A DNA stretch of 64,000 nucleotides, taken from NCBI RefSeq assembly GCF_900292015.1, contig NZ_LR130759.1, positions 1,302,001-1,366,000 of the forward strand. The letters are read 5' to 3'. The notes under the pieces were generated by a model. The model worked only from the letters and a program-made list of their open reading frames with translations, had not been told where the DNA came from and ran no database searches. Origin of the DNA: Mycobacterium basiliense (GTDB taxonomy: Bacteria > Actinomycetota > Actinomycetes > Mycobacteriales > Mycobacteriaceae). Each line of letters opens with the position of its first letter. The stretch's first letter is position 1. Positions 13,911-17,154 of the stretch are shown piece after piece. A program made the position numbers and the translations under genes.

Positions 13911-13935
13911 GTTTACCCAGCTCACGCCGGGGTAT
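13911..13935 (+). promoter_or_regulatory. SigF-type promoter in front of the sigF operon
   Basis: A GTTT at 13911-13914 is followed, 15 bases later, by GGGTAT at 13930-13935. This fits the mycobacterial SigF consensus GTTT-N15-17-GGGTA. The start of transcription would fall near 13942. That makes an ATG at 13946 unlikely and favours the ATG at 13979. The promoter implies that SigF activates its own operon. Confidence 0.75.
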
Positions 13936-14392: not shown

Positions 14393-14495
14393 AAAATAGT
14401 TTGGCGATACCCCTCCACATCCGCATCCGCGAGTTCTACCGTTGGTTGTATTGCCTGGTAATGGGCATCAAATCGGGAGAAAGGATGAGTGAGCC

Positions 14496-14807
14496 ATGGG
14501 GGACACTTATCGAGACCCCGTCGACCACTTGCGGACGACGCGGCCACTTGCTGGCGAGTCTCTGATCGATGTGCTGCATTGGCCCGGGTACCTCCTGGTG
14601 GTGGCGGGTGTTATCGGTGGCGTCGGAGCCCTTGCGGCCTTCGGTACCGGACATCACGCGGAAGGCATGGCCTCGGGTGTGGTGGCGGTCATCGTTGCTG
14701 TGGTGGGTCTGATGTGGCTGGCCTTCGAACACCGCCGAGTCCGCAGGATCGCCAATCGGTGGTACGCCGAACATCCCGAAGTCCGGCGGCAGCGGCTTGC
14801 CAGTTAG
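14496..14807 (+). CDS. usfY: UsfY-like membrane protein of the sigF operon
   Basis: This 103-residue protein has two predicted membrane helices (about residues 28-50 and 58-77) and a basic C-terminal tail. A GGAGAAAGG segment lies upstream as a ribosome site. Position between the Rv3289c-like gene and rsbW matches M. tuberculosis usfY (Rv3288c), although that protein is annotated somewhat longer. The function is unknown. Expression with SigF is expected from the upstream SigF-type promoter. Confidence 0.82.
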   Translation: MGDTYRDPVDHLRTTRPLAGESLIDVLHWPGYLLVVAGVIGGVGALAAFGTGHHAEGMASGVVAVIVAVVGLMWLAFEHRRVRRIANRWYAEHPEVRRQRLAS

Positions 14808-14980
14808 CCGCCCCGGGCCGGTCCTGTCAATTGCTAATCGCCTTGAATACCAGTGACTTCGGTATTCCGGGCGGCGGGGACGGGTCGGTTCGCGCCCGGC
14901 GGGGTGCGCGTGCGTCCGGGCGTGCTGCCGTGCAAGTTCGGCAGAAAATCACGGGAAATGCACCGGAAATGCCAAATCAC

Positions 14981-15007
14981 GTTTTGCCGTCCGCGCCGAC
15001 GGGGTAT
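14981..15007 (+). promoter_or_regulatory. Second SigF-like promoter, upstream of rsbW-sigF
   Basis: A GTTT at 14981-14984 and a GGGTAT at 15002-15007 are separated by 17 bases, within the mycobacterial SigF range. The transcript would begin near 15014 and run about 300 bases before rsbW, crossing the small opposite-strand gene at 15053-15187. It is the natural candidate for the internal promoter known in front of usfX in M. tuberculosis. Confidence 0.6.
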
Positions 15008-15052
15008 CACGAGTGCACCATGATGAGCACCGGCATTGTTGCGTTAACGCTA

Positions 15053-15187
15053 TTACCCCATCATGGGGGACAGAATCGTGAAGGCACCGACATAGATACC
15101 TACTACGACCACGATAAATACGACCAACGTTATCCCGGCGATCACCGCGATGCGCCTCAGCCTGCGCATCGCGACTGTGTCGGTCAT
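15053..15187 (-). CDS. 44-residue single-pass membrane protein opposite the rsbW leader
   Basis: A short frame reads MTDTVAMRRLRRIAVI, continues into a long Val/Ile/Leu helix (about residues 13-37) and ends in SPMMG and TAA. The positive Arg cluster before the helix predicts an inside N-terminus. A SigF-type promoter sits just upstream on the same strand, giving a leader of about 20 bases with a GGACGAG segment near the right distance for ribosome binding. The gene lies between usfY and rsbW on the opposite strand. Nothing equivalent is known to me at the M. tuberculosis locus. The function is unknown. That it is coding is supported by the promoter, the start context and the membrane-protein composition. 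Confidence 0.62.
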   Translation of the reverse strand: MTDTVAMRRLRRIAVIAGITLVVFIVVVVGIYVGAFTILSPMMG

Positions 15188-15212
15188 GTCACGCTCGTCC
15201 ACAGCTGGTTGA

Positions 15213-15238
15213 ATACCCGGTGGCGATCATGACAAACC
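15213..15238 (-). promoter_or_regulatory. SigF-type promoter for the 44-residue membrane gene
   Basis: Read on the minus strand, GGTTT (15238-15234) is followed by GGGTAT (15218-15213), with 15 bases between GTTT and GGGTAT. The spacing is the same as at the operon promoter at 13911-13935. The start of transcription would be near 15206, about 20 bases before the ATG at 15187. Confidence 0.65.
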
Positions 15239-15321
15239 GGCTAGAACCCAGGGCCCAAGGCGGGGACCGAGGTGGGTCCCAACGTGGGAGTAGTGTCGGT
15301 CGAAAATTGCCGGGAGGCCAC

Positions 15322-15759
15322 ATGACCGATGCGGATTCGCGCTCCAACGGGCGCCAACGCGGCCATCGTGCCGTGGAGTTAAACGTTGCTGCCCGTTTGG
15401 AGAACCTGGCGATGCTTCGAACCTTGGTCGGCGCCATCGGTACCTTCGAGGACCTGGATTTCGACGCCGTTGCGGACCTGCGGCTGGCGGTAGATGAAGT
15501 TTGCACCCGGTTGATTCGCTCGGCCACCCCAAACGCCACCCTGACGCTGGTGGTTGATCCACACGAGGACGAACTGGTCGTGGAGGCTTCTACGGCGTGC
15601 GACACCCACGACGTCGTCGCACCAGGCAGTTTCAGTTGGCATGTTCTGACGTCGCTGGCCGACGACGTTCAGACCTTTCACGACGGTCGCGAGCCCGATG
15701 CAGCCGGCAGCGTGTTCGGCATTACGTTGACGGCTCGACGGGCGGCCACTAGCAGGTGA
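15322..15759 (+). CDS. rsbW: Anti-sigma F factor RsbW/UsfX
   Basis: This 145-residue GHKL-fold protein binds and inactivates SigF. The ATG at 15322 has a GGGAGG ribosome site four bases upstream; a longer frame to 15220 lacks one. The N-box region reads AVDEVCTRL. The family consensus is ExxxN, but here Glu59 is followed four residues later by Arg63, so the Mg-ATP ligand Asn is not at its usual place. The M. tuberculosis protein, as I recall it, reads the same. Release of SigF comes from STAS-domain anti-anti-sigma factors. The stop overlaps the sigF start (GTGA), so the two are translationally coupled. Confidence 0.95.
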   Translation: MTDADSRSNGRQRGHRAVELNVAARLENLAMLRTLVGAIGTFEDLDFDAVADLRLAVDEVCTRLIRSATPNATLTLVVDPHEDELVVEASTACDTHDVVAPGSFSWHVLTSLADDVQTFHDGREPDAAGSVFGITLTARRAATSR

Positions 15760-16550
15760 CCTCGCGCGCTGCCGGCGGTTCTGCTTCACGACCCAACGAA
15801 TACGCCGATGTCCCGGAGATGTTTCGTGAGTTGGCCGGCTTCGGCGCCGACTCGCCTGACTTTCAGCGCCATCGGGACAAGATCGTGGAGCGATGCTTGC
15901 CGCTGGCCGACCACATCGCCCGGCGTTTCGAAGGTCGTGGCGAACCACGCGATGACCTAGTTCAGGTTGCGCGGGTCGGATTGGTCAACGCCGTAGTCCG
16001 CTTCGACGTGGAGACCGGGTCGGACTTCGTCTCTTTTGCGGTGCCAACCATCATGGGTGAGGTCCGACGGCACTTCCGGGACAACAGCTGGTCGGTCAAG
16101 GTTCCGCGACGGTTGAAGGAATTGCACCTGCGGTTGGGCGCCGCCACCGCGGAGTTGTCGCAGCGACTCGGCAGGGCCCCCACCGCGACGGAACTCGCGG
16201 CAGAGCTCGACATGGACCGTGCGGAGGTCGTTGAAGGCCTGGTGGCGGGCAGCTCTTATAACACCTTGTCGATCGACAGCGGTGGCGGCGGCGGTGGCGA
16301 CGACGACGACGCCCGCGCCATCGCCGACACGTTGGGAGACATGGATGCCGGCCTTGATCGGATCGAAGATCGGGAGTCGCTTCGCCCGTTGCTGGAGGCG
16401 TTACCGGAGCGTGAACGAACCGTATTGGTACTCAGGTTTTTTGAGTCCATGACGCAAACACAGATCGCCGAGCGAGTGGGCATCTCACAGATGCACGTGT
16501 CCCGATTGTTGGCCAAGTCGCTAGCTCGGCTGCGGGACCAGTTGGAGTAG
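15756..16550 (+). CDS. sigF: RNA polymerase sigma factor SigF
   Basis: This is a group 3 sigma factor of 264 residues, related to SigB/SigF of Gram-positive stress and sporulation systems. Region 2 contains DDLVQVARVGLVNAVVRFD and region 4.2 the helix-turn-helix TQTQIAERVGISQMHVSRLL. A Gly/Asp-rich linker (GGGGGGDDDD near residues 174-183) joins regions 3 and 4. The GTG start at 15756 overlaps the rsbW stop by four bases. In M. tuberculosis SigF is a stationary-phase and stress sigma factor controlling envelope genes. The last 30 bases overlap a convergent STAS gene. Confidence 0.97.
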   Translation: MTSRAAGGSASRPNEYADVPEMFRELAGFGADSPDFQRHRDKIVERCLPLADHIARRFEGRGEPRDDLVQVARVGLVNAVVRFDVETGSDFVSFAVPTIMGEVRRHFRDNSWSVKVPRRLKELHLRLGAATAELSQRLGRAPTATELAAELDMDRAEVVEGLVAGSSYNTLSIDSGGGGGGDDDDARAIADTLGDMDAGLDRIEDRESLRPLLEALPERERTVLVLRFFESMTQTQIAERVGISQMHVSRLLAKSLARLRDQLE

Positions 16551-16934
16551 TCGCGGTTTCGCCGCGTTAGCGTCGTTGATCGTCCCCGTGTCGTTGATCG
16601 TCCCCGTGGTGGGCAGTGCGCCGTCGGGGTCGCAGACCATTAGTAACCGCAACACCGCACGGCTGGGCACCATCGCCCATTGCGTGTCGGCCGCCGAGCA
16701 GGCCACATTGATCCGGTGTAGCACGGAAAACCCGGCAGTACCAATGAATTCCAAGCCGGTGAGGTCAAGGACCAGCCATCGGCAGTACTTTAGGCAGTGC
16801 TGGACGTACTCGCCGAGTTGATCTGCGTTAGCGGCATCGAGTTCACCTTGCGCGGTGATCACGCCGGTGGATGGCCCGCAGCGAGCGGTGAAGGTAGCGG
16901 TTCGGCATTTCTTCCAGGATTGGATCACAGACAT
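16521..16934 (-). CDS. STAS-domain protein, probable anti-anti-sigma factor
   Basis: This 137-residue protein has the STAS fold signature WLVLDLTGLEFIGTAGF (about residues 53-69). The phosphorylatable Ser of SpoIIAA-type proteins (DSSG) corresponds here to Thr66 in GTAG, and the preceding Asp is Gly65. The ATG at 16934 was chosen for its GGAG ribosome site; an in-frame GTG at 16976 adds 14 residues. A 12-bp palindrome (16952-16963) lies just upstream. Near the C-terminus an 18-bp tandem repeat encodes GTINDTGTIND. The gene overlaps the sigF 3' end by 30 bases. It is absent from this spot in M. tuberculosis as I recall it. Action on RsbW is inferred from location. Confidence 0.83.
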   Translation of the reverse strand: MSVIQSWKKCRTATFTARCGPSTGVITAQGELDAANADQLGEYVQHCLKYCRWLVLDLTGLEFIGTAGFSVLHRINVACSAADTQWAMVPSRAVLRLLMVCDPDGALPTTGTINDTGTINDANAAKPRLLQLVPQPS

Positions 16935-17154
16935 TGCGACTCCATCAGTCGACGAACGTTCGTAGCTGTGGATCACATCGAGCGTGCGAAGCGCCGCCGC
17001 GCAGGGAATTCACTCCTATTGCGGCCCGACACACTGACAGGACGTGATTCCGGGAGGCTGTGAACTCAACCTGTCTTCAACCGTACGCGGGGCGCGCGGG
17101 GGCGACAACAATCACTGGTCAGGCCGGTGAGCGGGGAACGGTTCGCCGCGCCGG

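Follow-up and report, generated by a model that had tools for sequence, protein, structure and literature searches.

The minus-strand frame at 15053-15202 of the window (the whole stretch of 64,000 nucleotides of Mycobacterium basiliense DNA that was analyzed) is a real gene inside the sigF locus, coding for a small, probably membrane-spanning protein, to which we will refer as "the microprotein". On balance, we favor slightly its interpretation as a SigF-regulon gene whose 49-residue, single-pass membrane product would belong to the SigF module, with both a brake and a membrane role. SigF is one of the principal sigma factors that mycobacteria use under stress and in stationary phase, and work on the signal side of its switch is ongoing. 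The locus brings together a small membrane protein that accompanies SigF in a large part of the genus, a predicted leader ORF whose stop overlaps the start of a longer RsbW, and two opposed promoters predicted to be under one sigma factor. The SigF switch may come with a brake of its own or with a helper in the membrane, and the position of the true RsbW start could be relevant to the design of RsbW constructs.

The genes of the locus are arranged in the order lat-like, Rv3289c-like, usfY, rsbW and sigF, together with a STAS-domain gene on the opposite strand; lat and Rv3289c are the names that we presume for the two upstream genes. The sequence places the sigF start at the GTG at 15756, overlapping the rsbW stop. 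Neither a sigma-70-like site nor a terminator was found in the scan of 14400-15400.

Coordinates of the features discussed in the text (positions in the window)
Feature	Position	Strand	Basis or detail
SigF-type promoter GTTT-N15-GGGTAT of upstream unit	13911..13935	+	GGGTAT-N10-ATG(13946)
usfY	14496..14807	+	NCBIfam UsfY, E=6.4e-42
Facing SigF-type promoter GTTT-N17-GGGTAT of rsbW-sigF transcript	14981..15007	+	Motif match
Predicted near-leaderless leader ORF (uORF, 70 aa) of rsbW mRNA	15020..15232	+	Stop TGA 15230-15232 overlaps ATG 15229 (ATGA)
Microprotein gene, probably 49 aa	15053..15202	-	GTG 15202-15200; genus-wide tblastn/profile matches, dN/dS, column shuffle, start geometry
SigF-type promoter GGTTT-N15-GGGTAT of microprotein gene	15213..15238	-	-10 15218-15213, -35 15238-15234
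rsbW (anti-SigF), probably N-terminally extended	15229..15759	+	HATPase_c_2 match; extension reads MTNRLE...
sigF	15756..16550	+	NCBIfam SigF, E=1.4e-148

The small minus-strand frame described in an earlier note on this DNA (15053-15187, 44 aa from an ATG) is present and complete as described, with the translation MTDTVAMRRLRRIAVIAGITLVVFIVVVVGIYVGAFTILSPMMG. Of 148 relatives searched by tblastn with these 44 aa, 31 gave a match, and a profile built from 32 copies detected the microprotein in 123 of 396 Mycobacterium genomes (E<=1e-5). When 401 genomes drawn from the family were searched, every match better than 1e-7 was inside the genus, the best one elsewhere having 2.4e-5; the non-genus matches (E 2.4e-5 to 0.01), which lie in open frames of at least 88 aa, were dropped, and the 17 loci around weak matches (L240-L256) are devoid of rsbW. 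The genome of the window contains the microprotein gene only once (next match E=0.018). The protein database contains 844 relatives at E<=1e-3; among the 120 listed, 70 have exactly 49 aa, and some bear the annotation hypothetical protein (M. decipiens, M. xenopi, M. noviomagense, M. marseillense). The microprotein is already annotated in part, but it has no Pfam or NCBIfam family, the best match being 10.1 bits vs. a cut-off of 27 in Pfam-A, and E=0.11 and 11.3 bits vs. a cut-off of 386 in NCBIfam; no family match was found in Rfam. The automatic labels carried by small relatives (GDT1 antiporter, FliL, PspC) were set aside.

The earlier note had proposed looking for the same frame in other mycobacteria together with a bias toward synonymous substitution, and both were found in 58 of 149 distinct rsbW-upstream loci, a non-random sample drawn by us from the rsbW and microprotein match lists plus named loci. 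These 58 loci are intact according to a mechanical rule which takes in some doubtful copies (L150, L083, L015, L022, L012); a further 41 are broken or partial, 49 show no recognized copy, and in one (L030) a co-directional copy just enters the stretch at its border. Among the named loci (n=80, a set outside which M. tuberculosis falls), the intact copies include those of M. gastri, M. persicum, M. szulgai, M. scrofulaceum and M. lepraemurium, and the broken ones those of M. gordonae (2/2), M. asiaticum (4/5) and M. colombiense (5/5). For the intact set, the median dN/dS is ~0.36 and pN/pS is 0.45 (649 pairs), and the differences are distributed as 33/18/49% over codon positions 1/2/3. In a column-shuffle test (54 sequences, 43 codons), the synonymous fraction of the minus frame was 0.61, compared with a shuffled mean of 0.285 (sd 0.045, maximum 0.438), and none of 300 shuffles reached the observed value. 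Plus frame +1 scored 0.457, above the shuffle maximum, yet it contains 48 stops, and its high score arises because its third positions coincide with variable columns; the remaining four frames gave 0.13-0.24. The conservation of the frame, the codon pattern and the promoter-to-start geometry described below goes beyond chance. The gene is old but dispensable: it must be regarded as accessory, since the copy is broken (41) or unrecognized (49) in 90/149 loci. A quickly built sigF tree (124 rows) requires 20 or more switches between presence and absence, probably losses for the most part, the count itself being blind to gain vs. loss; the gene is therefore inessential to SigF control.

As for the start of the gene, ATG or GTG is situated 9-10 nt past GGGTA[TCA] in 29 of 35 microprotein ORFs examined with a script that took whichever in-frame RTG came first after the motif; the exceptions comprise four ORFs without the motif, one without a nearby RTG, and one where the script chose an earlier GTG. 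The same geometry (GGGTA[TCA]-N9/10-RTG) recurs in 17/20 further loci outside the alignment of this survey. In the window frame, the conserved RTG lies five codons upstream of the ATG first read as the start. Alignment position 6 (32 rows) is occupied by V, T, I, A, M and others, and this variation, together with the recurrence of RTG 9-10 nt past the -10, indicates that the first-read ATG is not the conserved start. The gene is thus probably 15053-15202, near-leaderless and encoding 49 aa from GTG; the ATG start, the 44 aa and the leader of about 20 bases claimed before are given up, as the GTG at 15202 leaves almost no leader. The single membrane helix that had also been claimed agrees with the hydropathy of the protein (mean 3.02 for the best 21-residue stretch) and with an AlphaFold2 model of the 44-aa version (11 sequences), which consists of a single helix spanning residues 2-43 (mean pLDDT 91). 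The first dozen residues have a median net charge of +2 and the tail one of 0. At the C-terminus, 76 of 80 distinct stretches match a search string whose key place is restricted to Y, D or C; Tyr occupies this place in 75 of them, and 53 of the 76 have small residues on either side of it (Tyr-2 and Tyr+2). A single-pass topology, with the basic N-terminus inside and the short PMMG/Q tail outside, is predicted with good confidence.

The promoters of the microprotein gene and of the upstream unit share an identical N15 spacing, in keeping with the GGTTT/GGGTAT pair and the 15-base spacing of a sigF-locus promoter pointed out previously; in the Rv3289c-like gene, the arrangement GGGTAT-TCAATTTGCT-ATG equals the geometry of the microprotein gene. 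The promoter at 15238-15213 fits the form GTTT-N14-19-GGGTA described for M. smegmatis SigF in the accessible part of PMC4694148, whose SigF gene table includes several starts 8-11 nt past the motif, and is one base short of the consensus GGWWT-N16-17-GGGTAY (PMC7693655, excerpts). At the -10 place, [GC]GGTA[TCA] occurs in 37/47 intact, 23/33 broken and 5/22 gene-less loci, counting those with an in-frame MTN-type RsbW start (intact vs. absent, Fisher p=1.4e-5, uncorrected for relatedness). This -10, which is non-coding, tracks the presence of the microprotein gene, and SigF dependence of the gene seems very probable from these motifs. Two other lines were discarded: conservation of the -35, which overlaps RsbW-extension codons 1-4 (ATGACnAACC) and persists where the gene is missing too, and the promoter string as stand-alone evidence, with 35 genome sites vs. 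39 for a reversed-pattern control. In the window, the string occurs once vs. 0.30 expected, and the form GTTT-N15-18-GGGTAY is enriched (4 vs. 0.32 expected), with three of the four sites between 13911 and 15237. A copy from M. lepraemurium (L205) is intact although its -10 is altered to GGGAGT.

The opposition to the rsbW-sigF transcript suggested in the earlier note can now be given a definite form, as a SigF-type promoter at 14981-15007 faces the microprotein gene head-on. That reading had missed this promoter, the leader ORF coupled to the extended RsbW and the co-directional version of the operon. The plus-strand motif GTT[TA]-N14-18-GGGTA[TC] is present in 52/58 intact-gene loci and in 43/49 gene-less loci. 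Behind the promoter, a predicted leader ORF runs codon-aligned and antisense to the whole microprotein gene, so that two small ORFs, the leader ORF by prediction, overlap head-on at one locus. Both the plus promoter and an ATG behind it were found in 127/149 loci (the other 22, 20 without the plus promoter and two without the ATG, were left unscored for overlap), with the ATG exactly 12 nt past the -10 in 124 of the 127. The leader-ORF stop overlaps the rsbW-frame start in 104/127 loci, vs. 25.4 expected after shuffling the intervening bases with the letters of ATGACTAAC kept fixed; the offset is -1 (RTGA) in 73, -5 in 31 and neither in 23, and both overlaps are partly automatic, because ATGACTAAC carries stops in both other frames. 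By class, the overlap is found in 46/51 intact, 26/34 broken and 32/42 gene-less loci, and in 16 of the 29 loci of a second set (mostly fast growers, partly from the same genomes). It is absent in the deep-branching loci L285-L291 and L293, in three chaB-type loci, and in L237 and L297. The amino acid sequence of the leader ORF gave no signal of selection across the microprotein overlap (column shuffle, codon-aligned frame); therefore, the overlap, and not the peptide, seems to be kept. At its beginning (15020-15060, +), an (M)MSxG start is common to many loci, with or without the microprotein gene, and beyond it the leader ORF varies in length and sequence.

The rsbW-frame start on which the leader ORF ends lies upstream of the usual one (15322, with a strong Shine-Dalgarno GGGAGG at 15312-15317), and RsbW probably carries an N-terminal extension, MTNRLE... 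(15229-15321), fixed by the stop-start overlap. The motif [AG]TGACnAAC is in the rsbW phase in 74/74 occurrences, and the database contains RsbW proteins of 172-180 aa with the extension, many others having 145 aa, so that gene callers differ on the start. A coding test of the extension was weak, as 40/500 (codons 5-27) and 15/500 (codons 5-22) shuffles reached the observed value, compared with 0/500 for codons 1-20 of the usual rsbW used as a positive control; the claim thus rests on the 74/74 phase and on the coupling. The second SigF-type promoter facing the gene, together with the leader ORF overlapping the start of the extended RsbW, is what the sequence appears to add as new.

In the mechanism that we propose, RsbW would release SigF, and SigF-RNA polymerase would start at 15238-15213, the product of this promoter being an almost leaderless microprotein mRNA. 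SigF would also fire at 14981-15007, yielding an mRNA that would open with the leader ORF coupled to rsbW, followed by sigF, and the two units would run head-on over ~200 bp. Expression of the microprotein gene, with RNA pairing over the coupled leader, would damp rsbW-sigF transcription and coupled translation, and the microprotein would tune membrane or respiratory-chain signaling during the SigF response. Taken separately, both components are tentative: the cis brake on rsbW-sigF is rather less likely than not, and so, to the same degree, is the protein-level role at SigF or at a respiratory signal; a feedback role of the microprotein is a guess. The cis brake cannot be general, because the co-directional loci lack the head-on geometry and the deep-branching fast growers lack the leader-ORF overlap. 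MgrB is a small bacterial membrane protein that feeds back on its regulator PhoQ, and the microprotein resembles it in its one short helix, in being a candidate product of its regulator's own regulon and in the suspected feedback, no sequence relation being claimed. A membrane protein at the SigF switch is plausible, because respiratory inhibition raises the SigF regulon (PMC7693655, as far as its excerpts go) and SigF receives information on the respiratory state through a two-component system (PMC10950880, likewise in part). A broader idea, which we consider rather unlikely, is a self-limiting switch in which SigF starts two facing, overlapping near-leaderless ORFs in much of the genus: ribosomes would have to traverse the leader ORF to make RsbW and SigF, free SigF would fire its own brake via transcription, mRNA pairing and coupled translation, and the microprotein would report to, or act on, the membrane signal that freed SigF.

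All 61 loci around strong genome-wide matches hold rsbW (L227-L239, L257-L304), 59 with the microprotein gene in opposite orientation at 77-296 nt and two on the same strand at 609-652 nt; L029 contains a microprotein match but no rsbW. Co-directional copies were found in the fast-grower loci L133 (3839-3970, -), L238 (~1490-1620, +) and L292, as the first gene ahead of chaB-rsbW-sigF, with GGGTAC 9 nt (L133, L292) or 10 nt (L238) before the ATG. In L133, GTTT-N16-GGGCA, matched by eye, stands directly behind the microprotein gene and ahead of chaB, and the same string is reported for M. smegmatis chaB in the accessible part of PMC4694148. The gene could be a SigF-regulon membrane effector without feedback, stabilizing a complex of respiration or transport during stress, placed beside sigF by descent and with an inert overlap, which seems to us somewhat unlikely. 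Such an effector agrees with the existence of the gene in either orientation, in most cases behind a SigF-type -10 and with a near-leaderless start, with the many species that have rsbW and sigF but are without the gene, and with the induction of the SigF regulon by respiratory inhibition (PMC7693655, excerpts); nonetheless, the linkage to rsbW is retained in 61/61 loci despite the flip of the gene, and the protein has neither a family in Pfam or NCBIfam nor a known partner. The strict linkage itself could be a matter of simple descent.

Transcription from 15213-15238 might instead regulate the rsbW leader as antisense RNA only, the protein being incidental. The facing -10s are separated by 165-253 nt (median 205, n=41 intact loci), the antisense would span most of the coupled leader ORF, and the -10 is kept in 23/33 broken loci. 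There is also a precedent in AscarD, a SigF-driven antisense RNA, induced in stationary phase, that lowers CarD in M. smegmatis (PMC8820732, excerpts); AscarD and the microprotein locus have in common a SigF-type promoter opposite a regulator gene and an antisense direction with respect to a global regulator. However, AscarD is described there as an RNA, whereas the antisense transcript here would carry a conserved ORF, and, unlike in AscarD, the leader on the other strand is part of the sigF operon itself. Moreover, the minus frame is under protein-level selection and three loci encode the protein co-directionally, with no overlap; as the protein is linked to SigF in both arrangements, antisense RNA alone would not be enough, and we deem it improbable. 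Finally, a shadow ORF, open merely through the plus-strand leader ORF or base composition, is very improbable: although the opposite codon-aligned frame is likewise open in 57/58 sequences and the leader ORF ends on the RsbW start, the synonymous fraction is 0.61 in the minus frame vs. 0.235 in that opposite frame, co-directional homologues exist and the helix and PMM tail are conserved, and both this reading and chance were rejected by column shuffling and the other five frames.

Excludons are opposed units with overlapping antisense mRNAs, in which expression of one can repress the other. The favored reading, a SigF-regulon microprotein with a brake and a membrane role, resembles them in that the opposed mRNAs would overlap, as predicted from the overlapping ORFs and facing promoter motifs, and expression of one might repress the other; it differs in that one and the same sigma factor seems to drive both arms (compared with the accessible text of PMC7154746). 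Mycobacteria translate leaderless RTG starts, and RTGA-coupled small ORFs are known (PMC4633059, excerpts). The microprotein is like the leaderless small proteins described there in its RTG close past the -10, its 49 aa and its conserved coding, and the ATGA at 15229-15232, with its predicted coupling, is like the RTGA-coupled leader ORFs; compared with those cases, both kinds are found here on opposite strands of one stretch, under promoters assigned to one sigma factor. In the literature searched, mostly open-access articles without their supplements, there is no description of the microprotein, the rsbW leader ORF or the facing promoters, and the accessible parts of PMC12781872, PMC6448022, PMC8022548, PMC9094748 and PMC4974804 do not mention them.

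Regarding the neighbors of the locus, a STAS-domain, anti-sigma-antagonist-like gene (16521-16976, -) overlaps the 3' end of sigF, and a similar neighbor is found in many relatives; in two loci (L131:2867-3172 and L017:2377-2631), a usfY-like gene is inverted with respect to rsbW.
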